A DNA stretch of 64,000 nt from Pelagibacterium sp. 26DY04. Lineage in GTDB: Bacteria > Pseudomonadota > Alphaproteobacteria > Rhizobiales > Devosiaceae. The notes below the pieces were generated by a model. That model was not told the DNA's origin, ran no database searches, and saw only the letters and a list, made by a program, of their open reading frames with translations. The stretch covers positions 3,412,501 through 3,476,500 of the forward strand of contig NZ_CP101731.1 of NCBI RefSeq assembly GCF_031202305.1, given 5' to 3'. Position numbers and translations under genes: made by a program. Positions 50,845-64,000 of the stretch are shown here, piece by piece; within the stretch, counting starts at the first letter, position 1; every line of letters starts with the position of its first letter.

Positions 50845-50895
50845 TCGGCCCGTTCGGCATTGTGGCTAGGCACCCTACCCCCAAAGGAGGAGCTT

Positions 50896-51267
50896 ATGAT
50901 CAGTAAGCCGCTTGCCGCCACGCTCGCTCTTGCCACGTCGTCGCTGCTGTCGCTGACCTCGGCGGGCTTTGCCCAGACCGTCGGCGGTCAGGAGATCAGC
51001 GAGGCCGATTGGCCCATCGTTGAGAACCATTGCGCCGAACTGGCCGGCCAACCGCTCGAAGATCCCGCCGAGCAAGGCGCTTCCGGCGAGGCCACCGACA
51101 CACCCGCCGATACCGACGCCCGCGCCGATCAGGGCATGCCCCAGGAAATGCTCTCCGAAGGCACCGCCGATGAACCCGCGGAAGAAAACGAGGACCTTGC
51201 CACAGTCGATCTCGATGCCATCACGCTTGAGGATTGCACCGACGCAGGTCTCGTCGCCGAGCAATGA
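50896..51267 (+). CDS. Small acidic exported protein of unknown function
   Basis: A 123-residue protein. The ATG at 50896 follows a near-perfect ribosome site (AAAGGAGG). It starts with a signal peptide (SKPLAATLALATSSLLSLTS, cleavage at the FAQ site). The mature part begins QTVGGQEISEADWPIVENHC and contains a long Asp/Glu/Ala-rich disordered section, with a second Cys in LEDCTDAGLV, so the two cysteines may pair. No known domain. It stands alone, divergent from the EamA gene and ahead of the sugar transport operon. Confidence 0.7.
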   Translation: MISKPLAATLALATSSLLSLTSAGFAQTVGGQEISEADWPIVENHCAELAGQPLEDPAEQGASGEATDTPADTDARADQGMPQEMLSEGTADEPAEENEDLATVDLDAITLEDCTDAGLVAEQ

Positions 51268-51324: not shown

Positions 51325-51355
51325 TTGACTCACTCTGCAACCGGTTGCATAAATG
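51325..51355 (+). promoter_or_regulatory. Predicted promoter of the sugar ABC operon
   Basis: TTGACT (51325-51330), and a -10 element in the CATAAATG stretch starting near 51348. The LacI-type operator fills the spacer between them, a position that blocks RNA polymerase directly. Confidence 0.6.
51336..51349. promoter_or_regulatory. LacI-family operator OA
   Basis: A perfect 14-bp palindrome TGCAACCGGTTGCA with the central CG expected of LacI/GalR sites. A near-identical site precedes operon B at 59,416. Confidence 0.8.
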
Positions 51356-51396
51356 TCTTGTGCTAAAAACCGCACGCACGCTTAGTGGAGGAAATC

Positions 51397-52416
51397 TTGC
51401 GCAAATCTGCAATTTTGGTGGCCCTTGCGGCTGCCGGCCTGTCCTCGACCGCATTCGGTCAGGATAGCTTTACCATCGGCCTTTCCAACGGTTTCGTGGG
51501 TAGCGAATGGCGTACCCAGATGATCGAGGAGGCTCAGGCCGCAGCCGAGGCCTGGTCTGAAAACGGGGTGGAAGTCGAAGTCATCGTCCAGAGCGGCAAT
51601 GTCGACGTCCAGGGCCAGATCGGCCACATCCGCAATTTCATCAATCAGGGTGTCGATGCCATCATCATCAACCCCCAGAGCCCGACCGCTTTCGATCCGG
51701 TCTTTGCCCAGGCCGCCGCTGCCGGCATCCTCGTGATCGCCACCGACGCCGAAGTCTCCTCCCCCGACGCCATCTATGTCGGCATCGACCAGAAGCAGTA
51801 TGGCGTGCAGGCCGCCGAATGGTTGGTTGAAACGCTCGGCGGCGAAGGCAATGTCGTCACCATCGACGGCATCGCCGGCAACCCCGCTAACGAGGCCCGC
51901 GTCGCTGGCTATGAGGAAGTCTTCGCCCAGCATGAGGGCATCAATGTCCTCAATCAGGCCAATGCCAACTGGGATCAGGCACAGGGTCAGCAGGTAATGC
52001 AGAACCTGCTCGCTACCTATCCCGATATCGATGGCGTTCTGGTCCAGGACGGCATGGCCGACGGCGCCTGGCGCGCCATCGAGGCGGCCGGCCGCACTGA
52101 GGACATTGCCGCCACCGGTGAAATCCGCCGCGACTTCCTGGTACGCTGGCAGGAGCAGGGCCTCAATTCGGCCGCTTCGGTCAACCCTCCGGGCGTGATG
52201 GCCTCGGCGCTCAATGTCGCCGTGCTCGCGCTGCAGGGCAATGAGTTCCGCGAAGACGTGTTCACCGGCCAGTATGGCAATGCCATCTATATCCCGATCC
52301 CGTTCGTCGATAACGACAACCTCGCCGAGAACGTGGCTGCTTCCGAAGGACAGCCGGGCTACTGGTCGGTCACCGCAGTCGTGACCCCGGAAGAAGCCCA
52401 GGAATTCTTCCAGTAA
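51397..52416 (+). CDS. Sugar ABC transporter substrate-binding protein (RbsB type)
   Basis: A 339-residue periplasmic binding protein of the ribose/galactose type (Peripla_BP_4). It begins with TTG at 51397, five bases after GGAGG, giving a normal signal peptide (RKSAILVALAAAGLSSTAFG). Typical parts: FTIGLSNGFVGSEWRTQMIE, FINQGVDAIIINPQSPTAFD, VDGIAGNPANEARVAGYEEV and LATYPDIDGVLVQDGMADGA. The ligand is not known; context points to a glycoside-derived sugar. It is the first gene of the operon that runs to the Gfo/Idh gene, and a hairpin follows it. Confidence 0.92.
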   Translation: MRKSAILVALAAAGLSSTAFGQDSFTIGLSNGFVGSEWRTQMIEEAQAAAEAWSENGVEVEVIVQSGNVDVQGQIGHIRNFINQGVDAIIINPQSPTAFDPVFAQAAAAGILVIATDAEVSSPDAIYVGIDQKQYGVQAAEWLVETLGGEGNVVTIDGIAGNPANEARVAGYEEVFAQHEGINVLNQANANWDQAQGQQVMQNLLATYPDIDGVLVQDGMADGAWRAIEAAGRTEDIAATGEIRRDFLVRWQEQGLNSAASVNPPGVMASALNVAVLALQGNEFREDVFTGQYGNAIYIPIPFVDNDNLAENVAASEGQPGYWSVTAVVTPEEAQEFFQ

Positions 52417-52426
52417 CAATCGCATA

Positions 52427-52465
52427 GACCATCCGGGCGCCCCCCTTGGGTTGGCCCGGATGGTC
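52427..52465 (+). other. Intercistronic hairpin after the binding-protein gene
   Basis: A 12-bp perfect stem GACCATCCGGGC / GCCCGGATGGTC with a 15-base loop and no T-run. Such hairpins after binding-protein genes usually protect the upstream mRNA from 3' decay, so the binding protein is made in excess over the membrane parts. Confidence 0.7.
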
Positions 52466-52515
52466 CAATAAGAATACTCGAGATCGGCGCCTCCGGCAGC
52501 CGACGAGGAGGACAG

Positions 52516-54012
52516 ATGTCTGTTGCGCTTCAAGCCAAGGACGTGGTCAAGCATTTCGGCGCCGTCAAGGCGCTGGTCGATGGGCAGCTTTCCGTGGAGG
52601 AAGGCGAAATCCATGCGCTCATGGGCGCCAATGGCTGCGGCAAGAGCACGCTGTGCAAGATCATCGCCGGCGCCGTGTCGCCAACCTCGGGCGAGATCGT
52701 CTTTGAAGGCCAGCGGGCCGATTTCTCCAGCCCCCGCGCCGCCGAACATGCCGGTATCGCGCTGTTCTATCAGGAACTGAGCCTCATTCCGCAATTGAGC
52801 GTCGCCGACAATATCTTCCTCGGCCATGAGCCCAAAAAGGGCGCCTTCGTCGACCGCAAGGCGCTCCGTGAAAAATCGGCCGAACTCATCGCGCTTTTCG
52901 ACGGTGTCGCCGGGGTGGGCCTGGACCCCGACGTCATCGTTGCCGACCTGCCGCCCGATCAGCGTCAGATCGTCGAAATCCTGAAAGTCTTCGCCAAGAA
53001 CCCGCGCCTGATGATCATGGACGAGGCGACCGCCGCCCTCGATGGCCGTCAGTCGGAGCGCTTTTTCGACATCCTGCGCCAAAAAAAGGCGCAAGGTGTC
53101 TCCACCATCATGATCTCGCACCGGCTTGATGAAGTCTTCGCCGTTTGTGACCGCATCACCGTCATGCGCAATGGCGCAACCATCACCTCAGTCGATACCG
53201 CCGCCACGACGCGCGAAGAGGTGGTTCACAACATGGTCGGCGATGTCACCGCCCCCGCCCGCCGCGACCGTTCCGCCGAACCCGCTGGCGAAGTGACCCT
53301 CGAAGTCCGCAACCTGAGAAATTTCCGCGTTTCCAACGTGTCCCTCAAGGCCCACCGCGGCGAGATCCTCGGCCTTGCCGGCCTGCAGGGCCAGGGTCAG
53401 TCGGCGCTGCTCCAAGGCCTGTTCGGCGCCCGGCCCTTTACCGAGGGCGAATTGCGATTCGAAGGTCGCGCGCTTTCGATCAAGCGCCCTGGCCAGGCCG
53501 TTCGCGAAGGCTTTGCCTATGTTTCGGGCGATCGCGCCCGCGACGCGGCCCTGGGCGGGCGCTCGATCTTTGAAAACCTCGTCAGCGCGCTGACCGTCCG
53601 CGAGCGATTGAAGATCGTCAACCCGGGAACCCTCAAGCCTCGCGTCGAGGAGGTTTCAAAGGGTTTGAAGACCAAATTTTCTCATCTCGATGCGCCGATC
53701 GGCACGCTATCGGGCGGCAACCAGCAAAAGATCTTCATCTCCCGCTGGCTGGCAACCAAGCCCAAGCTCCTGCTGCTCGACGACCCCACCAAGGGTATCG
53801 ATCTGGGCGCCAAGTCGGACCTTTTCGCCTTGATGCGGCAATTGGCCGATGGCGGCGCCACCATTCTTTTCTATTCGTCGGAAGATTCGGAAATCCTCGA
53901 CTATGCCGACCGGGTCATCGTTTTCAATGGCGGTGAAATCTCGGCCGAACTCATGGGCGATGCCATCAATCCGGTCAATCTGGCCCGCGCCGCTTTCGGG
54001 GAGGCTGCATGA
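52516..54012 (+). CDS. Sugar ABC transporter ATPase (RbsA/MglA type, two ABC domains)
   Basis: A 498-residue fused double ATPase. Domain 1 has Walker A GANGCGKSTL (about 36), the signature replaced by DLPPDQRQIVEI, and Walker B MIMDEATAALDGRQ. Domain 2 has a degenerate Walker A (GLQGQGQSALLQG, no Lys) but an intact LSGGNQQKIFISRW signature and LLLLDDPTKGIDLGAK. This asymmetry is normal for RbsA/MglA proteins. It starts 99 bases after the binding-protein gene and overlaps the first permease by 4 bases. Confidence 0.95.
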   Translation: MSVALQAKDVVKHFGAVKALVDGQLSVEEGEIHALMGANGCGKSTLCKIIAGAVSPTSGEIVFEGQRADFSSPRAAEHAGIALFYQELSLIPQLSVADNIFLGHEPKKGAFVDRKALREKSAELIALFDGVAGVGLDPDVIVADLPPDQRQIVEILKVFAKNPRLMIMDEATAALDGRQSERFFDILRQKKAQGVSTIMISHRLDEVFAVCDRITVMRNGATITSVDTAATTREEVVHNMVGDVTAPARRDRSAEPAGEVTLEVRNLRNFRVSNVSLKAHRGEILGLAGLQGQGQSALLQGLFGARPFTEGELRFEGRALSIKRPGQAVREGFAYVSGDRARDAALGGRSIFENLVSALTVRERLKIVNPGTLKPRVEEVSKGLKTKFSHLDAPIGTLSGGNQQKIFISRWLATKPKLLLLDDPTKGIDLGAKSDLFALMRQLADGGATILFYSSEDSEILDYADRVIVFNGGEISAELMGDAINPVNLARAAFGEAA

Positions 54013-54953
54013 ACGCGCTGGGATTTGTAAGGAGCCGCCCCTGGCTCATCACCGTTCTCGTTCTGGTGCTGCTGGTTGCGATCAATATCGCGCTGCAGCC
54101 CTCGTTCACCAATCCCGGCGTGTTGCGCTCGAATCTCGCCACCTTCCTGCCCCTGGTGCTGGTTGCCATCGGGCAGACCTACGTGATCCTGGCCGGTGAC
54201 ATCGACCTTTCGGTCGGCTCCATCGTGGCGCTGGCCAATGTGGTGACCGTCACCGTGATCGCCGCCATGGGTGGCACCGACCTCGCTATCTGGATCGGCA
54301 TGGCCAGCGGCGTGGGTGTGGGCCTGGCCTGTGGCCTCGTCAATGGCCTCTTGATCTCTGGCCTGCGCTTCCAGCCGATCGTCACGACCTTCGCCACCGG
54401 CATTCTGTTCGCCGCCCTCGCCCTGTGGGTGCTTCCCCAGGCTGGCCTTCCCGTGCCACAGAACTATTGGCGCACCTATGGCGAGAGCTTTTTCGGTGTT
54501 CCGCTGGTTGCCTGGGTCCTGATCTTCGGCGTCGTCTTTACCCTGGTGGTCTCGCGCACCGTGTTCCACAGCCACCTTCTGGCGGCCGGCGGCAATCGTA
54601 CAGGGGCCTTCCAGTCCGGGCTTCGTCTGGGCAGCATTCGCATCGTCTCGTTCATGATCGCGGGGTTCTTTTCGGCCCTTGCCGCTCTATGCCTTACCGG
54701 CGAAACCGCTTCGGGCGATCCGCTCCTGGGCCAGACACTGGCGCTCTCTTCGATTTCGGCGGTGGTGTTGGGCGGCACGGCGCTGGCCGGCGGCTTCGGT
54801 GGTGCCTTCGGCTCGATCATCGGCGCCCTGGTGCTGGGCATGATCGGCAACGTCATCTTCTTTGCCGGCCTGCCTTTCGAATATCAAACGCTCGTCCAGG
54901 GCATCATCGTTCTTCTCGCCCTTGCCGGCGGCGTATTCGTAACGAGGCGGTAA
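54009..54953 (+). CDS. Sugar ABC transporter permease 1 (RbsC type)
   Basis: A 314-residue membrane protein of the BPD_transp_2 family with about 8-10 helices. Seen: NPGVLRSNLATFLPLVLVAI, QTYVILAGDIDLSVGSIVAL (the conserved GxxDLSVGS), VNGLLISGLRFQPIVTTFAT and the coupling region VLGGTALAGGFGGAFGSIIG. It overlaps the ATPase gene by 4 bases. One base separates it from permease 2, so the two probably form a heterodimeric channel. Confidence 0.94.
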   Translation: MNALGFVRSRPWLITVLVLVLLVAINIALQPSFTNPGVLRSNLATFLPLVLVAIGQTYVILAGDIDLSVGSIVALANVVTVTVIAAMGGTDLAIWIGMASGVGVGLACGLVNGLLISGLRFQPIVTTFATGILFAALALWVLPQAGLPVPQNYWRTYGESFFGVPLVAWVLIFGVVFTLVVSRTVFHSHLLAAGGNRTGAFQSGLRLGSIRIVSFMIAGFFSALAALCLTGETASGDPLLGQTLALSSISAVVLGGTALAGGFGGAFGSIIGALVLGMIGNVIFFAGLPFEYQTLVQGIIVLLALAGGVFVTRR

Positions 54954-54954
54954 C

Positions 54955-55923
54955 ATGGCCAATCCAACGTCCCGCATCACATCGATCCTCACCGATCCGC
55001 TCACCCTGGCGATCGGCGCCTCCATCGCCCTGCTGCTGATCGGCGAACTGGTTTCCCCCGGTTTCGCGCAGGGCCAGCAGATCGTGCGGCTTCTGACCGT
55101 CGCCGCCATCCTGGGCATCGTCGCCGCCGGGCAGAACCTCGTGATCCTCGGTGGCCGCGAGGGCATCGATCTTTCCGTCGGCGCCATGATCTCCTTGGGC
55201 GCCGTTCTCGCCGGCAACATGATGAACGGCCAGAACGAAATGATCCCGCTTGCCATCCTGGTTGCGGCGGGTGTTCCGTTCCTTATTGGCCTCATCAACG
55301 GTCTCGGCGTCACCTTCGTGCGCATTCCACCCCTGGTGATGACCCTGGGCATGACTGCCGTGATCCAGGGCGGCCTTGTGGTCTATTCCCAGGGCGTGCC
55401 CTCGGGTCAGGCCGCGCCCATGCTCTCGGCTTTCATCAACCGGCCGTTCCTCTTCGGCATTCCCGGCATCCTTTTCGTTTGGGTGCTGATTGCCATCGCC
55501 ATGTGGTTCCTGCTGCGCCGCACCGCCTTCGGCTATGCGGTCTACGCCATGGGCTCCAACGAACGCGCCGCCACCCTCAACGGTATTCCCGTGCGCTTCG
55601 TGCGCGTGATGATTTTCGGGCTCTCGGGTCTCTTCGCCGGCCTCGCCGGGCTCTGCGTCATCGGTTATACCGGCTCGTCCTTCATTTCGGTGGGCGACCA
55701 GTATGTCCTGCCCACGGTGATCGCCGTAGTGATCGGTGGCACTTCGCTCGCCGGCGGTATCGGCGGCTACTGGGGCACAATGGCCGGCGCGGTGGCGCTC
55801 ACCATTCTCCAGAGCGTCCTGATCACGCTCAACATGGACGTGTGGATGCGTCAGGTGATCTTCGGTCTTACACTGCTCGCACTGATGTTGCTCTACGGGC
55901 GCCAGAAACAACTTCGCGTCTAA
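54955..55923 (+). CDS. Sugar ABC transporter permease 2 (RbsC type)
   Basis: A 322-residue paralogue of permease 1, with the same markers: LGGREGIDLSVGAMISLGAV, GLINGLGVTFVRIPPLVMTL and VVIGGTSLAGGIGGYWGTMA. The hydrophobic pattern is equal, but the two are far from identical, so this is an old pair and not a recent copy. The ATG at 54955 lies one base after the permease 1 stop. LacI follows after 4 bases. Confidence 0.94.
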   Translation: MANPTSRITSILTDPLTLAIGASIALLLIGELVSPGFAQGQQIVRLLTVAAILGIVAAGQNLVILGGREGIDLSVGAMISLGAVLAGNMMNGQNEMIPLAILVAAGVPFLIGLINGLGVTFVRIPPLVMTLGMTAVIQGGLVVYSQGVPSGQAAPMLSAFINRPFLFGIPGILFVWVLIAIAMWFLLRRTAFGYAVYAMGSNERAATLNGIPVRFVRVMIFGLSGLFAGLAGLCVIGYTGSSFISVGDQYVLPTVIAVVIGGTSLAGGIGGYWGTMAGAVALTILQSVLITLNMDVWMRQVIFGLTLLALMLLYGRQKQLRV

Positions 55924-55927
55924 CCCT

Positions 55928-56962
55928 ATGCAGGCCAAAAAGAGCATTCACGAAATCGCCAGCATCGCGGGGGTATCCGCCGCGACGGTGTCGCGCGCCC
56001 TGCACAATCCCTCGATGGTCAAAAAAGAAACCCTCGAGCGCGTGCTCAAGATCGTCGAGCAAACCAATTTCGTGTCCAATGCCCAGGCGCGCTCGTTCCG
56101 CCAGCAGACGACGAGAACCGTCGTGCTCCTGGTGCGCGATATCTCCAACCCGTTCTATCTCGAGATCTTCAAGGGGGTGGAGGAAGCGGCTTCCGACGCC
56201 GGCTACAAGGTGCTGATGGCCGATGCGCGCAACGACGAAGCGCGGGTCAAATCCTATATCGACCTCGTGCGCCAGCGGCAGGCCGATGGCGTCATCGTCA
56301 TGCTCGGCAGCCTGCCCTTCGACGTCGCCGCCCATATCGACCGCTCCACTCCCATCGTCGTTGCGTCCGAAGCCCTCCCCGATGTCGATCTGCCCACCGT
56401 GCGCATCGACAACGTCGCGGCGGCCCGCGAGGCGGTGCAGTATCTGATCGCCCAGGGCCACCGCTCCATCGCCCATATCGGCGGGCTGCCCGCCGACTAT
56501 CTGGGCCAGGAGCGGCGCAAGGGCTATGAACTCGCGCTGGCCGACGCCGGCATCGCGATCGATCCCGAGCTTGTCGTTTCGGGCGATTTTTCCATCACTG
56601 CCGGCCGCGAGGCGGCAAGCCGGCTGCTCGACCGCGGCGCGCGTTTTACCGCCATTTTTGCTTCGAGCGACCAGATGGCCATCGGCGCAATCGGCGCGCT
56701 GCGCCAGCAGGGCTTTTCGGTGCCCGCCGACATTTCCGTCATCGGCTTCGACGACATCATCCTCGCCGAAGCGTTCGAGCCGCCACTGACCACAGTACGT
56801 CAGCCCCGGCTGGAGATGGGCCGCAAGGCGATGCAATTGATGATCGGACGACTGGAACACCAGGACCTGCCGTCCGTACACGAATTCAAAACGCGCCTTG
56901 TCGTGCGTGCTTCGGTCGCCGCCCCCCGCGGAGCGATCATCGAGCGGCGGCTGGGCGCCTAA
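55928..56962 (+). CDS. LacI family transcriptional repressor
   Basis: A 344-residue LacI/GalR regulator. The HTH at the N-terminus (KSIHEIASIAGVSAATVSRA, residues 4-23) is followed by hinge helix SNAQARSFRQQ and a ribose-binding-protein-like effector domain with LVRDISNPFYLEIFKGVEEA, IDNVAAAREAVQYLIAQGH and ISVIGFDDIILAEAF. The presence of Ala-Arg in the hinge area fits binding of a palindrome with a central CG. It is the fifth gene of the operon it is likely to repress (site OA), and site OB ahead of operon B matches closely. Confidence 0.95.
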   Translation: MQAKKSIHEIASIAGVSAATVSRALHNPSMVKKETLERVLKIVEQTNFVSNAQARSFRQQTTRTVVLLVRDISNPFYLEIFKGVEEAASDAGYKVLMADARNDEARVKSYIDLVRQRQADGVIVMLGSLPFDVAAHIDRSTPIVVASEALPDVDLPTVRIDNVAAAREAVQYLIAQGHRSIAHIGGLPADYLGQERRKGYELALADAGIAIDPELVVSGDFSITAGREAASRLLDRGARFTAIFASSDQMAIGAIGALRQQGFSVPADISVIGFDDIILAEAFEPPLTTVRQPRLEMGRKAMQLMIGRLEHQDLPSVHEFKTRLVVRASVAAPRGAIIERRLGA

Positions 56963-56978
56963 AAGGAGGTTAATTTCG

Positions 56979-58031
56979 ATGAAAACACTCAAAGGACCGG
57001 CGATCTTTCTTGCACAATTCGCCGGTGAGCAAGCCCCGTTCGATACGCTCGACAACATCACCAAATGGGCTGCCGGCCTGGGCTACAAGGGCGTGCAGGT
57101 GCCCACTCTGGGCAATTTCATCGATCTCGAAAAGGCGGCGTCATCCAAGGATTATTGCGACGAGATCAAGGGCATCGCCGCCGCCAATGGCGTCGAGATC
57201 ACCGAGCTTTCGACCCACCTTCAGGGCCAGCTCGTCGCCGTCCATCCCGCGTACGACACCCTGTTCGACGGCTTCGCGGTCCCCGAAGTGCGCGGCAATC
57301 CCAAGGCGCGGCAGGAATGGGCGGTCAATCAGTTGATGCTCTCTGCCAAGGCCTCGCACAATCTGGGGCTCACCGAACACGCGACGTTCTCGGGCGCTTT
57401 GGCCTGGCCCTATGTCTATCCCTGGCCGCAGCGCCCGGCCGGACTGGTCGAGGAAGCCTTCGACGAACTGGCGCGCCGCTGGACCCCGATCCTCGATGCG
57501 TTCGAAGAGGCCGGCGTCGATCTGTGCTACGAGATCCACCCGGGCGAGGACCTCCATGACGGGGTCAGCTACGAAATGTTCCTTGAGCGCGTGAACAACC
57601 ACGCCCGCGCCAACCTGCTCTACGATCCGAGCCACTTCGTCCTGCAGCAGCTCGATTATCTCGACTATATCGACATCTATCACGAGCGGATCAGGATGTT
57701 CCACGTCAAGGACGCCGAGTTCAACCCGACCGGGCGTCAAGGCGTTTATGGCGGGTATCAGGGCTGGGTCGAACGTGCCGGGCGCTTCCGTTCTTTGGGC
57801 GACGGGCAGGTCGATTTCGCCGCGATCTTTTCCAAGCTCGCTGCCTATGATTTCGCCGGCTGGGCCGTGCTCGAATGGGAGTGTGCGCTCAAGCACCCCG
57901 AGGACGGAGCGCGTGAAGGCGCCGAGTTCATCAAGAACCACATCATCCGCGTCACCGAAAAGGCCTTCGACGATTTCGCCGGCACCGGAACCGACACGGC
58001 GGCCAACCGCAAGATGCTCGGCATCGACTAA
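56979..58031 (+). CDS. Sugar phosphate isomerase/epimerase-type TIM barrel (cytoplasmic)
   Basis: A 350-residue xylose-isomerase-like TIM barrel without a signal peptide. Markers: GYKGVQVPTLGNFIDLEKAA, FDELARRWTPILDAFEEAGV, LCYEIHPGEDLHDG (metal Glu), LLYDPSHFVLQQLDYLDY (metal Asp and His), RMFHVKDAEFNPTG (metal His, Asp) and VLEWECALKHPEDG (metal Glu). These residues fit one divalent metal. Family relatives epimerise or isomerise keto sugars; YcjR of E. coli is a 3-keto-glycoside 4-epimerase. It has a strong AAAGGAGG ribosome site and lies directly upstream of the Gfo/Idh gene. Confidence 0.9.
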   Translation: MKTLKGPAIFLAQFAGEQAPFDTLDNITKWAAGLGYKGVQVPTLGNFIDLEKAASSKDYCDEIKGIAAANGVEITELSTHLQGQLVAVHPAYDTLFDGFAVPEVRGNPKARQEWAVNQLMLSAKASHNLGLTEHATFSGALAWPYVYPWPQRPAGLVEEAFDELARRWTPILDAFEEAGVDLCYEIHPGEDLHDGVSYEMFLERVNNHARANLLYDPSHFVLQQLDYLDYIDIYHERIRMFHVKDAEFNPTGRQGVYGGYQGWVERAGRFRSLGDGQVDFAAIFSKLAAYDFAGWAVLEWECALKHPEDGAREGAEFIKNHIIRVTEKAFDDFAGTGTDTAANRKMLGID

Positions 58032-58045
58032 AGGGAGAGAGGACA

Positions 58046-59200
58046 ATGGCAGAGAACGGAAAACGCCCCATTCGCTTAGGCATGGTCGGCGGCGGCAAGG
58101 GCGCCTTCATCGGTTACGTCCACCGCATCGCGTCCCGGCTCGATGGTGACTACCAGCTCGTCGCCGGCGCCCTCTCTTCCCGCGCCGAAGTCGCAAGGCA
58201 ATCGGGCAAGGATCTCGGCCTTGCCGAAGACCGCATTTACACCGATTTCGCCGCAATGGCCCGCGCCGAAGCCGCCCGCGAGGACGGCATCGAAGCGGTG
58301 GCGATCGTCACGCCCAATCACATGCATTTCGCCCCCGCCAAGGCGTTCCTCGAAGCGGGCATCCATGTGATCTGCGACAAGCCTTTGACCTCTTCGATCG
58401 ATGACGCCTATGCGCTGCAAAAAATCGAGGCGAAAAACGGCGCCAAATTCCTTCTCACCCACAACTACACCGGCTACCCGCTGATCCGGCAGGCGCGCGA
58501 GCTCGTCCGCTCAGGCGCCTTGGGCAAGATCCGCGTCGTCCAGGCCGAATACCCCCAGGATTGGCTGGCCGAGCCGGTGGAAAAATCGGGCAATGCGCCA
58601 GGGGCCGAATGGCGCACCGATCCGGCCCGCTCCGGCGCCGGCGGCGCCATCGGCGATATCGGCACCCATGCCTACAACCTACTGCGCTATGTGACCGGCC
58701 TCAAGACGGCGGCGGTTTCCGCCGATCTCGACCATTTCGTCGAAGGTCGCCAGCTCGACGATAATGTCAATATCATGCTGCGCTTCGAAGGCGGGGCCAA
58801 AGGCATGCTCTGGGCCAGCCAGGTGGCCGTCGGCTGCGAGAACGGGCTCCAGCTTCGGGTCTATGGCGAAAAGGCCGGCCTCGAATGGCGGCAGGATAAC
58901 CCCAATTACATGTGGTTCACCGAGTTCGGCAAACCGCGTCAGCTTCTGACCCGCGGCGGCGCCATCAACGGTGCGCCGGCCAGCGCCATGGGCGTTCGCG
59001 TCCCGTCGGGCCATCCCGAAGGATATCTTGAGGCCTTTGCCACGCTCTATTCGCAATTCGCCGCCATCATCCGTGGCGAAGGGGATGAGTTCGAAGGCCT
59101 GCTGCCCACCCTCGATGATGGCGTCGAAGGCATGGAGTTCATCATGGCCGCCGTCGAATCGAGCCGCAACGACAGCCGCTGGACCCCGCTGAGTCGCTAG
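58046..59200 (+). CDS. Gfo/Idh/MocA family oxidoreductase
   Basis: A 384-residue NAD(P)-dependent sugar dehydrogenase. Rossmann motif LGMVGGGKGAFIGYVHR at the N-terminus, VAIVTPNHMHFAPAKAFLEA, the catalytic-lysine motif as CDKPLT (usually EKP), and the substrate-side GGAIGDIGTHAYNLLRYVTG with the catalytic Asp and His. Close family types oxidise a sugar C3 hydroxyl or reduce a 3-keto sugar (for example YcjS, LgdA, ThuB). The substrate is not shown by sequence. It is the last gene of operon A. Confidence 0.92.
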   Translation: MAENGKRPIRLGMVGGGKGAFIGYVHRIASRLDGDYQLVAGALSSRAEVARQSGKDLGLAEDRIYTDFAAMARAEAAREDGIEAVAIVTPNHMHFAPAKAFLEAGIHVICDKPLTSSIDDAYALQKIEAKNGAKFLLTHNYTGYPLIRQARELVRSGALGKIRVVQAEYPQDWLAEPVEKSGNAPGAEWRTDPARSGAGGAIGDIGTHAYNLLRYVTGLKTAAVSADLDHFVEGRQLDDNVNIMLRFEGGAKGMLWASQVAVGCENGLQLRVYGEKAGLEWRQDNPNYMWFTEFGKPRQLLTRGGAINGAPASAMGVRVPSGHPEGYLEAFATLYSQFAAIIRGEGDEFEGLLPTLDDGVEGMEFIMAAVESSRNDSRWTPLSR

Positions 59201-59415
59201 CGGCACGCTTGTTGTAGCCGGCAGCCGCGACAGGCCGCAACCGACACGGGCAAGGGGCTCAGATCCCTTGCCGGCGCCCCACCCAAGGGCGTCCAGAACG
59301 AAAGCCGAAAAGGCCCTTGAAGCGCCCTTGGGGGAGGTGCGCCTCAAGGGAGCGGGCTTTCCATTTCTTCTGATAACCACATGAAATCATTGAAGTTTTT
59401 TCACGCCTTCGCAAC
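59201..59415. other. Intergenic region between operons A and B
   Basis: The gene gap is 361 bases (59201-59561). Its first half holds GGCAAGGG..CCCTTGCC (59249-59272) and a longer-range stem CCCAAGGGCG / CGCCCTTGGG (59282-59332), which may stop operon A transcripts, though neither has a clear T-tail. The second half holds operator OB and the operon B leader. No gene is seen. Confidence 0.55.
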
Positions 59416-59429
59416 TGAAACCGGTTGCA
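59416..59429. promoter_or_regulatory. LacI-family operator OB
   Basis: TGAAACCGGTTGCA, 13 of 14 bases identical to operator OA. It lies 133 bases before the first gene of operon B, so the operon A repressor probably controls both operons. A promoter around it cannot be placed with certainty. Confidence 0.7.
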
Positions 59430-59561
59430 AGAATAGCCCGCCTATGGCTTAATCAAACTTGGGCAGGAGAGATATTCAGAGACAATGTGACCGATCTCCC
59501 TGCCCACAGTTGCGGCCGCCTCGATGCTGTTCGGCGGCCATCATCAGGTGAGGAGATTGAA

Positions 59562-60431
59562 GTGAAAAAGCAGGGTCTTTTGCTGAGCACGGCCATTGCC
59601 GGTTTTGTGGTTGCCGCCGGTGCGGCCTCGGTGTCGGCGCAGGACGCCGCCCCGCAAGAAGATGCAGCGCTGCCGATCGCCGTGCAGATGTACACGCTGC
59701 GCAATTTCGGTTCCGTTGATGAACAATTGGCCATCGTCGAAGAGGCCGGCGTTTCGGCCGTCGAACTCGTCGGCACCCATGATATGAGCGCCGAGGACCT
59801 CAACGGGCTGCTCGACGCCCACGGGATCGATGCGATTTCGGCCCATGTCCAGCTCGATGCGCTGCGCAGCGGCATCGAGGATGTCATCGAATTCAACAAG
59901 GCCGTGGGCAATGAGGTGATCACCGTACCCTATCTGGCCGAAGAGGCCCGCCCGACCGATGCCGAAGGCTGGACCGCCCTTGGCGAAGAGCTCGAAGGGT
60001 TCGCCGGCCAGCTTCAAGCCGAAGGCCTCCAGCTCGCCTACCATAACCACGATTTCGAAATGGAAGAGTTCGATGGCCAGACGGCGCTCGAAGTGATGTT
60101 CGACGCCGCGCCCAGCGTCCTCGCCCAGCTCGACGTGGCCTGGATCGACCGCGCCGGCCTCGATGCGGCCGAATATATAGCCAATTTCGATGGTCACCTG
60201 TTCGCCATCCATGCCAAGGACAATGCGCCCGAAGGTGAGGCCGAGGAAGAGGACGGCTGGGCCGCTGTCGGCTCGGGCACCATCGATTGGCAGGCGGTTC
60301 TGACCGCCGCCAACGATGCGGGTGCCCAATGGTACATCATTGAGCACGACAACCCGGCAGACGCGTCGGCTATCGTGGATAGCAGCGCACGCTTCCTCGA
60401 ACAGGAACTGCCCGGCATTCTGGGCGAATAA
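59562..60431 (+). CDS. Exported sugar isomerase/epimerase-type TIM barrel
   Basis: A 289-residue xylose-isomerase-like TIM barrel with a signal peptide (KKQGLLLSTAIAGFVVAAGA, cleavage near VSAQ), unlike most relatives, which are cytoplasmic. Markers: LPIAVQMYTLRNFGSVDEQL, AYHNHDFEMEEFDG (metal residues), LAQLDVAWIDRAG, HLFAIHAKDN (His) and WYIIEHDNPAD (Glu). Related secreted proteins are thought to act on 3-keto-glycosides in the periplasm. It starts with GTG at 59562 after GAGGAGA. It is the first gene of operon B and follows operator OB. Confidence 0.88.
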   Translation: MKKQGLLLSTAIAGFVVAAGAASVSAQDAAPQEDAALPIAVQMYTLRNFGSVDEQLAIVEEAGVSAVELVGTHDMSAEDLNGLLDAHGIDAISAHVQLDALRSGIEDVIEFNKAVGNEVITVPYLAEEARPTDAEGWTALGEELEGFAGQLQAEGLQLAYHNHDFEMEEFDGQTALEVMFDAAPSVLAQLDVAWIDRAGLDAAEYIANFDGHLFAIHAKDNAPEGEAEEEDGWAAVGSGTIDWQAVLTAANDAGAQWYIIEHDNPADASAIVDSSARFLEQELPGILGE

Positions 60432-60505
60432 CAGCCTGACGGCCGGGCCGCTCAACAGCCCGGCGGATTAACGTCCAGGCCAATCCAGCTCCATCCCTTA
60501 CCACC

Positions 60506-60527
60506 CGCGAATGGCACCCCATTCGCG
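60506..60527 (+). other. Hairpin upstream of the GMC gene
   Basis: A 9-bp perfect stem CGCGAATGG / CCATTCGCG with a 4-base loop, in a 171-base gap. It lies 3 bases before GGAGGAG (60531), which is too far from the ATG at 60603 to serve it. It may adjust expression between the exported isomerase and the GMC enzyme. Confidence 0.55.
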
Positions 60528-60602
60528 GCAGGAGGAGCTTTGCACCCAAGCGCAGCGGATTGGCCTGCCCTCACGGCCTTTAAAATCCATGGAGAACCTC
60601 AC

Positions 60603-62294
60603 ATGGCCAATGCCAACAATCATTACGATGCCATCGTCGTTGGATCCGGCATCAGCGGCGGCTGGGCCGCCAAGGAGTTGACGGAAAAGGGCTTGAAAGT
60701 CCTGCTGCTCGAGCGCGGCAAGAATGTCGAGCACGTCACCGACTACACAAGCGCCAACAAGGAAGCCTGGGATTTCCCGCACCGCAACCGCGCCACCCAG
60801 GAGATGAAGGAGAAATTCCCCGTTCTCTCGCGCGACTACCTGCTCGATGAGGCGACCCTGGGCATGTGGGCGGACGAACAGGAAAATCCCTATGTAGAGG
60901 AAAAGCGCTTCGACTGGTATCGCGGCTATCATGTGGGCGGCCGCTCCCTGATGTGGGGTCGCCAATCCTATCGCTGGGCTCCCATCGATTTCGAAGCCAA
61001 TGCCAAGGACGGCATCGCCGTCGACTGGCCGATCCGCTATGAGGACGTTGCCCCCTGGTACGATTATGTCGAGCGCTTCGCCGGCATTGCGGGCACCCGC
61101 AACGGGCTCGACATCCTCCCCGATGGCGAGTTCCTGCCCCCCATCCCGCTCAACTGCGTCGAAGAGGACGTGGCCGCCCGTATCCAGACTGCGTTCAACG
61201 GCACGCGGCACCTGATCCACTCGCGCTGCGCCAACATCACCCAGGAGCTCGAAGGCCAGAACCGCACCCGTTGCCAATACCGTAACAAATGTCGGGTCGG
61301 CTGCCCGTTCGGCGCCTATTTCTCCACCCAGTCCTCGACGCTCCCCGCCGCCATGGCGACGGGCAATCTCACCCTGCGCCCGTTTTCGATCGTCAAGCAG
61401 GTGCTCTACGACCGCGACGCCAAGCGCGCCACCGGCATCGAGATCATCGATGCGGAAAACAACCAGACCTACGAATACACCGCCGACATCATCTTCCTCA
61501 ACGCCTCCACCCTCAACACCACCTGGATCCTGATGAATTCGGCCACCGATGTGTGGGAGGGCGGCCTGGGCTCGAGCAGTGGCGAATTGGGCCACAACGT
61601 CATGGACCACCATTTCCGCGTCGGCGCCAATGGCGACATCGAAGGCTATGAGGACGTCTACTATCAGGGACGCCGTCCGGCCGGCTTCTATGTCCCCCGC
61701 TTCCGCAATGTGGGCGACGATACCCGCGACTATATCCGCGGCTTCGGCTATCAGGGCTCGGCCAGCCGCCAGGGCTGGCAGCGCGAGATCGCCGAACTCA
61801 ATATCGGCCGCGATTTCAAGGACGAACTGCTCCAGCCCGGCAAGTGGACCATCGGCATGACCGCCTTTGGTGAAATGCTGCCCTATCACGACAACCGGGT
61901 CACGCTGGACCACAACACCACCGACAAATGGGGCTTGCCCGTCCTCTCGATGAATGTCGAGATCAAGGACAACGAGCTCAAGATGCGCAAGGACATGGCC
62001 GACGATGCCGCCGAGCTCTTCGAGGCGGCCGGCGTCAAGAACGTTACGACCTACGACGCCGAATACGCGCCCGGCATGGGCATCCATGAAATGGGCACCG
62101 CCCGTATGGGCCGCGATCCCAGAACGTCCGTGCTCAACGCCCACAACCAGGTTTGGGACGCCCCCAATGTGTTCGTGACCGACGGGGCGTGCATGACCTC
62201 GGCGTCCTGCGTCAATCCCTCTCTGACCTACATGGCCCTGACGGCGCGCGCCGCCGATTTCGCGGTCGAAGAACTCAGGAAAGGAAACCTGTGA
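60603..62294 (+). CDS. GMC oxidoreductase, probable catalytic subunit of a glycoside 3-dehydrogenase
   Basis: A 563-residue FAD enzyme. The N-terminus has AIVVGSGISGGWAAKELTEK (dinucleotide motif) and LLLERGK. GYHVGGRSLMWG follows, then a Cys motif RCQYRNKCRVGCPFG with C-x5-C-x3-C spacing, as in the [3Fe-4S] site of bacterial FAD glucose dehydrogenase. The C-terminal active site is GMGIHEMGTARMG (His) and ASCVNPSLTYMALTARAAD (Asn). There is no signal peptide; export would depend on the Tat signal of the next gene, whose ATG overlaps this stop. C3 oxidation of glycosides is inferred from subunit type and the DUF1080 neighbour. Confidence 0.9.
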   Translation: MANANNHYDAIVVGSGISGGWAAKELTEKGLKVLLLERGKNVEHVTDYTSANKEAWDFPHRNRATQEMKEKFPVLSRDYLLDEATLGMWADEQENPYVEEKRFDWYRGYHVGGRSLMWGRQSYRWAPIDFEANAKDGIAVDWPIRYEDVAPWYDYVERFAGIAGTRNGLDILPDGEFLPPIPLNCVEEDVAARIQTAFNGTRHLIHSRCANITQELEGQNRTRCQYRNKCRVGCPFGAYFSTQSSTLPAAMATGNLTLRPFSIVKQVLYDRDAKRATGIEIIDAENNQTYEYTADIIFLNASTLNTTWILMNSATDVWEGGLGSSSGELGHNVMDHHFRVGANGDIEGYEDVYYQGRRPAGFYVPRFRNVGDDTRDYIRGFGYQGSASRQGWQREIAELNIGRDFKDELLQPGKWTIGMTAFGEMLPYHDNRVTLDHNTTDKWGLPVLSMNVEIKDNELKMRKDMADDAAELFEAAGVKNVTTYDAEYAPGMGIHEMGTARMGRDPRTSVLNAHNQVWDAPNVFVTDGACMTSASCVNPSLTYMALTARAADFAVEELRKGNL

Positions 62295-62878
62295 TGATGA
62301 ACCGACGCGACCTCTTAAAGCTCATCACCGCCGCAACGGGCATGTCCCTGATCGGCGGATCCATTGTCACCGCTCAGGAATTGTTCGGCCCGCAAAGCGA
62401 CACGGGACGTGCCTTTGGCGAGGCCGGCAGCGCCCTTAGTGACGAGGAGATCGCCTTCCTCAACGAAGTTGCCGAGGTGATCCTGCCCCGGACCGACACG
62501 CCCGGTGCCAAGGAGGCCGATGTGGCAACCTTCATGTCGACCTATGTTGCCGATGTGTATTCGGCTGATGAGCGGGAGACATTCCTCACCGCCATGCCGG
62601 AAATCTCGGCCCGCAGCCAGGATCAGTTCGGCAAGGACTTCCTCGACCTCACCGAAGACGAACGGCTCACGCTGGTTTCCGAACTCGACGAGGAAGCCCG
62701 CGCGGCCGCCTCATCCGATGACCCGCACTATTTCACCATGGTCAAGCAACTGACCCTACTGGGGTTCTTCACATCCGAGGTCGGCGCCACCCAGGCCCTG
62801 CGCTATGAGGCGGTGCCCGGCGGTTACGACGGCTGTGCCGTCTACGAAGAGGGCCAGCCGGCCTGGGCCACCGGCTGA
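62294..62878 (+). CDS. Gluconate 2-dehydrogenase subunit 3 family protein with Tat signal
   Basis: A 194-residue small subunit. A twin-arginine signal is visible (MNRRDLLKLITAATGMSLIG, RRDLLK). After it: EAGSALSDEEIAFLNEVAEV, VILPRTDTPGAKEADVATFM, which is the conserved core of the gluconate_2-dh3 family, and DDPHYFTMVKQLTLLGFFTSE near the C-terminus. These proteins carry the folded GMC subunit across the membrane and hold it there. The ATG at 62294 overlaps the GMC stop (ATGA). No cytochrome c subunit is seen in the window. Confidence 0.92.
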   Translation: MMNRRDLLKLITAATGMSLIGGSIVTAQELFGPQSDTGRAFGEAGSALSDEEIAFLNEVAEVILPRTDTPGAKEADVATFMSTYVADVYSADERETFLTAMPEISARSQDQFGKDFLDLTEDERLTLVSELDEEARAAASSDDPHYFTMVKQLTLLGFFTSEVGATQALRYEAVPGGYDGCAVYEEGQPAWATG

Positions 62879-63009
62879 TTTTCGATCGCCCCGGTACGGG
62901 CAAAGGTGTCGGCGGGGCCTTCCCCGCTGGCGAGGTCCCGCGGCGGACCGAGGTGTCGCATCCGGTTGCTCCCGACGGATGCGGCACCCATTGGATGGAG
63001 GAGGTGCCT

Positions 63010-63510
63010 ATGAACATGCATTTCATGCCGGTCGCCGAAGCCGGCTTCAAATCGGCGATGGCAAATCTTGCCGGAGCCGTCAGCGTGGTGACGACACTTT
63101 CGGGCTCGACTCGGTTGGGCATGACGGCGAGTTCGGTCACCTCGTTTTCGGCCCAGCCACCCTGCATTGCCGTCAACATCAACATGGCCACCCGCACCGG
63201 CCGGGCCATGCGCGCCGGCAGCCCGCTCTGCGTTAACATTCTCGGCGACCAGCAGGACGAGATCGCCGCGATATTCGCCGGGCGGGCAGACGCCGCCGGT
63301 GACCGTTTTTCGGCCGGCCGCTGGCACATGATGAGTTCGGGCGCTCCCGCGCTCGAAGACGCAATCGCCAATATCGACTGCATCGTCGAGGACGTGATCG
63401 AACGCCACACCCACGCCATCGTGCTGGCCCGCGTCATCGCCATTGTATCCGGCAGCGAGCGCCGCCCGCTGCTTTACTGGCAACGAGGTTTCCACAGCCT
63501 GCAGACCTGA
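63010..63510 (+). CDS. Flavin reductase family protein
   Basis: A 166-residue FMN-binding split-barrel protein of the HpaC/flavin_reduct type. Seen: FKSAMANLAGAVSVVTTLSG, GMTASSVTSFSAQPPCIAVN (flavin loop), INMATRTGRAMRAGSPLCVN and the C-terminal ARVIAIVSGSERRPLLYWQR. Such enzymes reduce flavin with NAD(P)H for a partner. No signal peptide is present, so it is likely cytoplasmic among exported gene products. Its ATG follows GGAGGAGGTG. The 131-base gap ahead holds a weak LacI-type site. Confidence 0.85.
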   Translation: MNMHFMPVAEAGFKSAMANLAGAVSVVTTLSGSTRLGMTASSVTSFSAQPPCIAVNINMATRTGRAMRAGSPLCVNILGDQQDEIAAIFAGRADAAGDRFSAGRWHMMSSGAPALEDAIANIDCIVEDVIERHTHAIVLARVIAIVSGSERRPLLYWQRGFHSLQT

Positions 63511-63540
63511 CCGGTCCACTGGATAATGAGGAGATATTCC

Positions 63541-64000
63541 ATGATCAAACACATCATTTTGTCGGGCACCGCCCTTTTGAGCACGACCGCCATGGCCCTC
63601 GCCCAGGAGGCCGAACCCACCGACGGCCAGAAATCGGAAGTGACCGAAATCTGGGAGCCGGTCCCCGAAACCGTCGAAACCCCGGAAGGCGAGCCGCCTT
63701 CGGACGCCATTGTGCTTTTTGACGGCACCAATCTCGACGCCTGGGAATCGGTCGATGGCGGTCCCGCCGAATGGACCGTGGAGGACGGCGCCTTCACAGT
63801 CGCCCGGGGTACGGGCGATATCCGCACCACCGAAAGCTTCTGCGACGTGCAATTACATATCGAGTGGCGCTCGCCTGCCGAAACCGAGGGCTATGACAGC
63901 CAGGATCGCGGCAATAGCGGCGTGTTCCTCCAGGAACGCTATGAAGTCCAGGTCCTCGACAGCTTCGAGAACCCCACCTACGTCAACGGTCAGGCAGCCT
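63541..64000 (+). CDS. DUF1080 (3-keto-disaccharide hydrolase family) protein, truncated by window end
   Basis: The first 153 codons of an exported protein. Signal peptide [20 protein letters not shown] (cleavage about AQE), an acidic linker (about 22-55), then the DUF1080 domain: [19 protein letters not shown], then [20 protein letters not shown], and [20 protein letters not shown] with TYVNGQA at the edge. This concanavalin-like domain hydrolyses 3-keto-glycosides in studied members. It is the last gene in the window, 30 bases after the flavin reductase gene; the stop lies outside. Confidence 0.9.

Follow-up and report, generated by a model that had tools for sequence, protein, structure and literature searches.

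When a glucoside is oxidised and cleaved outside the inner membrane and its sugar is used inside, which molecule is carried across, and by which transporter? The question is raised by a locus at the end of the window, as we call the 64,000-nt stretch of Pelagibacterium sp. 26DY04 analysed here (G000:C1:3412501-3476500 of a single-contig 3.89-Mb genome), in whose numbering coordinates are given. From the bare sequence, an earlier note had listed a sugar ABC transporter, a LacI repressor, TIM barrels, a Gfo/Idh dehydrogenase, a GMC enzyme with a twin-arginine translocation (Tat) subunit, a flavin reductase and a DUF1080 protein. Pfam and NCBIfam profile searches found every one of these gene types, collinear and on the + strand. 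They form operon A (51385-59200; the binding protein, ATPase and permease pair of a ribose-type, CUT2, ABC transporter, then LacI, HYD and GFO) and, after a gap of 361 bp, operon B (from 59562; OGE, GMC, SUB3, flavin reductase, DUF1080 and TIM2), whose last gene, the 13th of the locus, lies beyond the window end and was invisible to the earlier note. We consider that the locus is probably a membrane-split form, under LacI control, of the non-hydrolytic glucoside pathway known from Agrobacterium, with a relocated or swapped HYD-GFO pair. Its operators and genes are as follows.

51336-51349: LacI-type operator TGCAACCGGTTGCA, a perfect 14-bp palindrome upstream of operon A
51385-52416, + strand: CUT2 sugar-binding protein (SBP, Peripla_BP_4), predicted to be exported; PF13407, 202 bits; start codon uncertain, no ATG
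52516-54012, + strand: CUT2 ABC ATPase with two ABC domains; PF00005 in two stretches; 72-73% identical to Agrobacterium
54009-54953, + strand: CUT2 permease 1; PF02653; 78% identical to Agrobacterium
54955-55923, + strand: CUT2 permease 2; PF02653; 82-83% identical to Agrobacterium
55928-56962, + strand: LacI-family repressor; PF00356 and PF13377; 60% identical to Agrobacterium
56979-58031, + strand: HYD, 2-hydroxy-3-keto-glucal hydratase homologue without signal peptide; 653 bits against PDB entry 8RO4
58046-59200, + strand: GFO, Gfo/Idh/MocA oxidoreductase; PF01408/PF22725; 62% identical to Agrobacterium and 88% to sister genome G007
59416-59429: LacI-type operator TGAAACCGGTTGCA, a 14-bp palindrome upstream of operon B
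59562-60431, + strand: OGE, TIM-barrel homologue of 3-keto-O-glucoside β-eliminase, predicted to be exported by a signal peptide; 311 bits against PDB entry 8BVK
60603-62294 (queried from 60597), + strand: GMC-family sugar 3-dehydrogenase homologue, large subunit; PF05199/PF00732; 82% identical to Agrobacterium
62291-62878, + strand: SUB3, Tat-type small subunit (Gluconate_2-dh3); PF13618, 128 bits; twin-arginine start MNRRDLLK
63010-63510, + strand: HpaC/RutF-like flavin reductase; PF01613
63541-64293 (past the window end at 64000), + strand: DUF1080/3-keto-disaccharide hydrolase family protein with a predicted signal peptide; PF06439, 147 bits
64365-65261 in the window frame (L003:13865-14761), outside the window: TIM2, second TIM barrel, with a twin-arginine start

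What chemistry would these genes support? GMC is best matched by the large subunits of fructose and glucose dehydrogenases, and it contains the motif stretches GSGISG, HEMGTARM and CVNPSLT. The earlier note had called the cytoplasmic TIM barrel an isomerase and spoken of YcjR/YcjS-type enzymes, which is a loose label: HYD aligns over residues 1-349 of both chains with 8RO4, which is named 2-hydroxy-3-keto-glucal hydratase, and its three PDB matches do not include YcjR. It therefore looks more like a hydratase homologue than an epimerase of the YcjR type. Its neighbour GFO (493 bits against PDB entry 3V5N) is a probable 3-keto-glucose reductase. The 8BVK match of OGE is the A. tumefaciens O-glycoside β-eliminase (AtOGE), and the closest protein found belongs to Pelagibacterium sp. 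H642 (97% identity). With the numbering of PMC10628242 transferred to the protein of locus L040, from a metagenome-assembled genome of A. tumefaciens, and then compared with the window OGE, all four active-site metal ligands of AtOGE (H132, D163, H189 and E233) are kept as H161, D191, H217 and E261, the catalytic His134 is H163, and a ligand of the alternative site differs (E161 in AtOGE, Q189 in the window).

These enzymes make up a known four-enzyme pathway. Bitter et al. (2023; PMC10628242) showed that a Rhizobium GlycDH, which has a 95.5% identical homologue in A. tumefaciens, oxidises C3 and that AtOGE carries out the elimination; for hydration by AtHYD and reduction by the Gfo protein they gave preliminary evidence. 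The gene order is shared too: SBP-ATPase-permease-permease-LacI-HYD-GFO-OGE-GMC-SUB3 stand in the window order in Agrobacterium L039 and L040 at 50-83% identity (to L040: GMC 82%, SUB3 50%, HYD 79% and GFO 62%), and Neorhizobium L045 keeps the first eight genes. Since OGE has been characterised, with preliminary evidence for HYD and Gfo, and the gene order is found in Agrobacterium, the suggestion that the gene set is undescribed fails for the core set. With its GMC enzyme and Tat subunit, its OGE residues and its clustered HYD and Gfo proteins, the locus appears by sequence to be a member of the Agrobacterium-type OGE/HYD glycoside loci: it has the enzymes of the GlycDH/TAT-AtOGE-AtHYD-Gfo pathway, the ten-gene order including the ABC transporter and LacI, and the OGE active site. 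It differs in its additional flavin reductase, DUF1080 and TIM2, in being split into two units by a second operator, and in a HYD-GFO pair of the host genus's own lineage.

Do operons A and B belong to one system? The operator pattern TGNAACCGGTTNCA matches at exactly two places in the whole genome, 51336-51349 and 59416-59429, i.e. at both promoters, and its reversed control matches nowhere in the genome. With one mismatch allowed, the window still contains two matches, a number that none of 100 window shuffles reaches. The pattern also occurs in seven of 21 related loci, upstream of the operons in L039, L040 and L045, upstream of OGE in L037, and between LacI and GFO in L047, L191 and L192; it is found in none of 55 Hyphomicrobiales HYD loci (see below). 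Because no operator precedes OGE in L039, L040 or L045, the second transcription unit is new here relative to those three. LacI probably controls both units, in response to an inducer that we infer, as we do the enzyme activities, the compartments (from signal peptides) and the transporter cargo; genes, gene order, homology, operators, trees and the pattern of relocation are observed. The earlier picture of two probably LacI-controlled operons is supported by the two operators, although neither a sigma-70 promoter nor a terminator turned up when both intergenic regions were scanned. That there are two units is argued from the operators and from the gap of 361 bp.

The two operons might instead be unrelated neighbours, or serve inositol metabolism, given that both window TIM barrels match TIGR04379 (IolE) and GFO weakly matches inositol dehydrogenases. 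All of these NCBIfam matches are far below the curated cut-offs, however, and the common operators and the conserved A-B linkage also argue against this explanation, which we regard as very improbable. Linkage in relatives, whose absence the earlier note had named as a refutation, is present and extends over ten genes in Agrobacterium L039/L040 and eight in Neorhizobium L045.

Where would each step take place? OGE, DUF1080 and SBP have predicted signal peptides, SUB3 and TIM2 each begin at a twin-arginine motif, and HYD aligns with its solved counterpart from the first residue. The window OGE and all 16 other examined OGEs of at least 50% identity have an N-terminal extension ahead of the barrel. 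By a crude rule based on hydrophobicity, 14 of these 16 have a signal, compared with none of five cytosolic eliminase homologues (L051, L151, L152, L153 and L155). The OGE frame of L040 has a TTG start and a signal-like stretch, and the crystallised chain (8BVK) starts at approximately the predicted mature end. Oxidation and elimination therefore look periplasmic, and hydration and reduction cytoplasmic, so that the product crossing the membrane would be 2-hydroxy-3-keto-glucal or its hydrate 3-keto-glucose, one or the other being the probable cargo of the CUT2 transporter.

In the proposed route, the glucosyl unit would be oxidised at C3 by the GMC/Tat-subunit dehydrogenase on the outer side of the inner membrane. 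The exported OGE, probably with DUF1080 for other linkages, would cleave the 3-keto-glucoside by elimination into the aglycone and 2-hydroxy-3-keto-glucal, a reactive species that CUT2 would carry inward as such or as 3-keto-glucose; HYD would then hydrate 2-hydroxy-3-keto-glucal and GFO would reduce 3-keto-glucose to glucose. The 3-keto-glycoside chemistry foreseen in the earlier note, with extracytoplasmic oxidation and cleavage, dedicated uptake and cytoplasmic finishing, is in this respect supported. An Angewandte paper of 2024 on A. tumefaciens and Bacteroides lyases is said to give a DUF1080-type protein α-specific lyase activity; this paper and a Nature paper of the same year, reportedly on an alternative glycan pathway, may already state compartments or a transporter. 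In PMC10628242, the word 'periplasm' occurs 0 times in the main text and no transporter is assigned in the sections covered.

How did HYD and GFO come to stand in operon A? In the trees, the window HYD groups with the copies of Devosiaceae sister species (10 rows, 97/93), the window GFO with sister genome G007 (96/81), and the window GMC with Agrobacterium (99/98). The HYD-GFO pair directly adjoins GFO2 in 11 of 12 sister genomes. Seven of these were viewed over 17-20 kb: six have CUT1 genes, a cytosolic eliminase, GFO2, HYD and GFO in that order, and G003 gave no CUT1 matches. The window genome has kept CUT1, the cytosolic eliminase and GFO2 (87% to G007) without HYD-GFO at about 1734000-1740050 (L230), 1.7 Mb from the window locus. 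The flank there resumes after an absence of 4.6 kb relative to sisters L232 and L234, in which the 4.6 kb contains HYD-GFO. HYD has one match in the window genome at E 1e-100, and the window HYD-GFO block aligns with G007 as a single stretch of 2.2 kb at 82%. Two histories fit: the pair may have moved, or it may have replaced an incoming pair while its old copy was lost. In both, HYD-GFO would have left, or been swapped from, the operon of a cytosolic pathway still present at ~1.734-1.740 Mb on the same chromosome; since this older set persists without the pair, one HYD-GFO pair may finish two routes. A mirror case is seen in G010 (L237), where HYD-GFO is kept but none of CUT1, eliminase and GFO2 is matched at that site.

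The CUT2/LacI and OGE/GMC parts were probably acquired, whereas HYD-GFO belong to the lineage native to the genus, that of its other locus, which the earlier note could not have seen. We rejected vertical inheritance of operon B within the genus because none of 60 other genomes, including 12 from the genus, has a GMC match at E 1e-80. The flavin reductase has no close homologue in the 12 sister genomes (best match 39%). G+C content is no marker of the acquired parts (0.626-0.629, compared with 0.627 for the window).

Is CUT2 the usual importer beside these enzymes? An OGE-alignment scan of genome contigs, of which the best 80 of at least 569 confirmed stretches were used, gave ten stretches of at least 50% OGE identity (L037-L045 and L047); the remaining 70, TIM barrels of 30-40% identity, served only where named. 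Of 32 related loci that were classified, 20 entered the count, each with a HYD in the piece and either GMC at 70% or more or OGE at 50% or more. Beside HYD/GFO, CUT2 is the importer in four (L038, L039, L040 and L045) and a PF03825-type (nucleoside-symporter-type) permease in 16, four of which were confirmed by Pfam and the rest assigned by a 55-92% tblastn match; CUT1 is found in none of the 20 by tblastn with the queries used. Outside the count are seven loci in which HYD is not in the piece (L037, L199, L200, L205, L206, L207 and L209) and five with GMC of 48-59% (L202, L203, L204, L208 and L210), four of these five with a PF03825-type permease, one with none, and none with CUT1. At E 1e-120, GMC was found in 27 of 398 genomes of a phylum-wide sample that includes the window's; 11 others have it at 72-79% identity, nine of them with HYD, GFO and the permease. 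In the class sample, GMC was found in five of 385 genomes. A rule that a cytosolic eliminase goes with CUT1 was dropped: the association was seen in one family (L151, L152, L153 and L155), and the fifth such locus, L218, has CUT2.

Also close are the gamma-proteobacterial loci L041-L044, L071 and L100, plus L191-L198 and L201, where GMC, SUB3, DUF1080, TIM2, HYD, GFO and LacI occur together as in the window; they differ in having a PF03825-type permease instead of CUT2, often lie on two strands, and some have a cytochrome c gene. A small gene of this kind stands between OGE and DUF1080 in L041 (10835-11137), with similar ones in L043 and L193-L196, and its product is a candidate electron acceptor for GMC/SUB3 in these loci. 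TIM2, a weak match (33 bits) of PDB entry 6WN6 in the comparison with the YcjR-type 3-keto-glucoside 4-epimerase, is encoded close to GMC in Paracoccus and in the majority of the gamma-proteobacterial loci viewed. Where GMC reaches at least 70%, the gamma-proteobacterial and Paracoccus loci encode proteins 56-76% identical to the window DUF1080 (276 bits against PDB entry 4QHZ). A further DUF1080 protein, sharing 76% identity with the window's, is encoded at L005:9259-10320 (G000:C1:2265233 region) beside what we take to be two Gfo/Idh-like genes and a mannonate dehydratase-like protein. Just upstream of operon A (50890-51267), a small, very acidic, exported-looking protein is encoded that belongs to no Pfam or NCBIfam family.

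DUF1080 also brings another system to mind. LacABC consists of a GMC subunit, a small subunit and LacB, a cytochrome c subunit. In a disaccharide system of this type, DUF1080 would hydrolyse 3-keto-disaccharides outside and the transporter would import the sugars set free. Price et al. (2022; PMC9007349), in the part covered here, tie LacABC and DUF1080 to lactose use in Caulobacter; the window has in common with that system a GMC enzyme with a small subunit and an exported DUF1080 near the dehydrogenase, and DUF1080 is near GMC in most of the gamma-proteobacterial loci seen. The window piece differs in having OGE, HYD, GFO and a transporter, and no CxxCH protein within its 20 kb. As the Agrobacterium and Neorhizobium loci give no DUF1080 match in the piece and yet keep OGE, HYD and GFO, and HYD would be left purposeless, we find this explanation improbable.

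What does HYD accompany elsewhere? It matched in 179 of 397 sampled genomes of Hyphomicrobiales, and 55 HYD loci, about one per genus, were hand-picked from the listed matches (G092 gave two). CUT2 without lyase or GMC in the piece was found in 19, CUT1 without either in 12, and neither transporter nor lyase in 18; four have CUT1 and one has CUT2 with a cytosolic eliminase, and one has a 27% GMC match. L173 in G092 is operon A itself (SBP 71 or 74 by comparison, ATPase 62, permeases 64-66, LacI 56, HYD 75 and GFO 53% identical), and SBP is 71-74% identical to proteins of Agrobacterium, Neorhizobium and G092. G092 gave no PF13618 or PF06439 match, GMC itself not having been searched for there, and the 112 genomes that gave an OGE match, from a sample that likely included G092, do not contain it. 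Not all genomes with CUT2 and no lyase are devoid of the other parts, since 18 of the 19 (G323 left out) gave a PF13618 match in four (G295, G279, G161 and G198) and a weak PF06439 match in three (G277, G351 and G369), one over the cut-off.

Such stand-alone LacI-CUT2-HYD-GFO cassettes would be explained by scavenging of an intermediate and also by an intact anhydrosugar substrate. The first possibility leads to a tentative extension of the glucoside-pathway reading, to which we give rather less than even weight: CUT2 may be a dedicated importer of 2-hydroxy-3-keto-glucal, a reactive enone, or of 3-keto-glucose, periplasmic 3-keto loci may couple cleavage to this uptake, stand-alone cassettes of genomes that lack the oxidase subunit (e.g. 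G092) may scavenge the intermediate leaked by neighbours, and the periplasmic and older cytosolic routes may converge on the relocated HYD-GFO. The closest PDB matches of SBP are CUT2/ribose/allose-type binders (best 112 bits), and a structure model from a five-sequence alignment (mean predicted local distance difference test score, pLDDT, 51.6) was too poor for a fold search.

The second possibility is that CUT2 imports an intact small glycoside or anhydrosugar, which GFO oxidises and HYD eliminates and hydrates inside, operon B being a parallel periplasmic route under the common regulator. The levoglucosan lgd operon offers a precedent: in the parts of PMC7676230 and PMC10066097 covered here, oxidation, elimination, hydration and reduction proceed via 2-hydroxy-3-keto-glucal, LgdB2 is reported to be bifunctional and LgdA possibly dual, and a sugar ABC transporter and LacI accompany the lgd genes in Bacillus smithii, and an ABC transporter in others, its class being unstated. 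The 19 of 55 HYD loci with CUT2 and no lyase in the piece would also suit this alternative. GFO does match levoglucosan dehydrogenase LgdA (NF052479), but weakly, at 116 bits for a cut-off of 650. The lgd four-enzyme set starts with an NADH-linked dehydrogenase, whereas in the window the GMC/Tat pair would oxidise and OGE carries a predicted signal peptide. Moreover, AtHYD was inactive on 3-keto-phlorizin (PMC10628242, sections covered), operons A and B form one collinear block in Agrobacterium, and they have common operators in the window genome. We therefore judge intact import unlikely, if less so than the disaccharide system.

Several observations weigh against reading the locus as a membrane-split glucoside pathway. 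In 49 of the 55 HYD loci sampled from Hyphomicrobiales, the piece contains neither a lyase nor GMC, and the HYD-GFO pair may thus have other uses. Because sugar ABC transporters also accompany levoglucosan genes (PMC7676230 and PMC10066097, as far as covered), an importer beside such enzymes need not carry keto-glucal. The 20 related loci are phylogenetically non-independent, the exact operator is restricted to seven of 21 related loci, and Neorhizobium L045, although it has OGE, shows neither GMC nor SUB3 over the following 10 kb. The hydrophobicity rule is non-specific, firing on 12 of 25 HYD and seven of 25 GFO rows and missing two of 16 OGEs and four of 17 DUF1080s; in HYD the hydrophobic stretch lies within the solved chain, as 8RO4 aligns from residue 1. 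As for the electron acceptor, no CxxCH occurs in any frame stretch of at least 60 codons of the 20-kb piece L003, and an unlinked one may exist. Finally, tblastn gave no counterpart of the flavin reductase in any of the compared related loci, and neither it nor TIM2 has an assigned role.

Carbohydrate metabolism has only recently come to include the non-hydrolytic breakdown of glucosides, and the passages of the pathway literature covered here leave unstated which species crosses the inner membrane. On the reading that we prefer, the Pelagibacterium locus offers a testable answer, with one transporter, a small regulon and one intermediate. It may also serve as a natural experiment, in which a single HYD-GFO pair would have been shifted between the cytosolic and periplasmic versions of the pathway.

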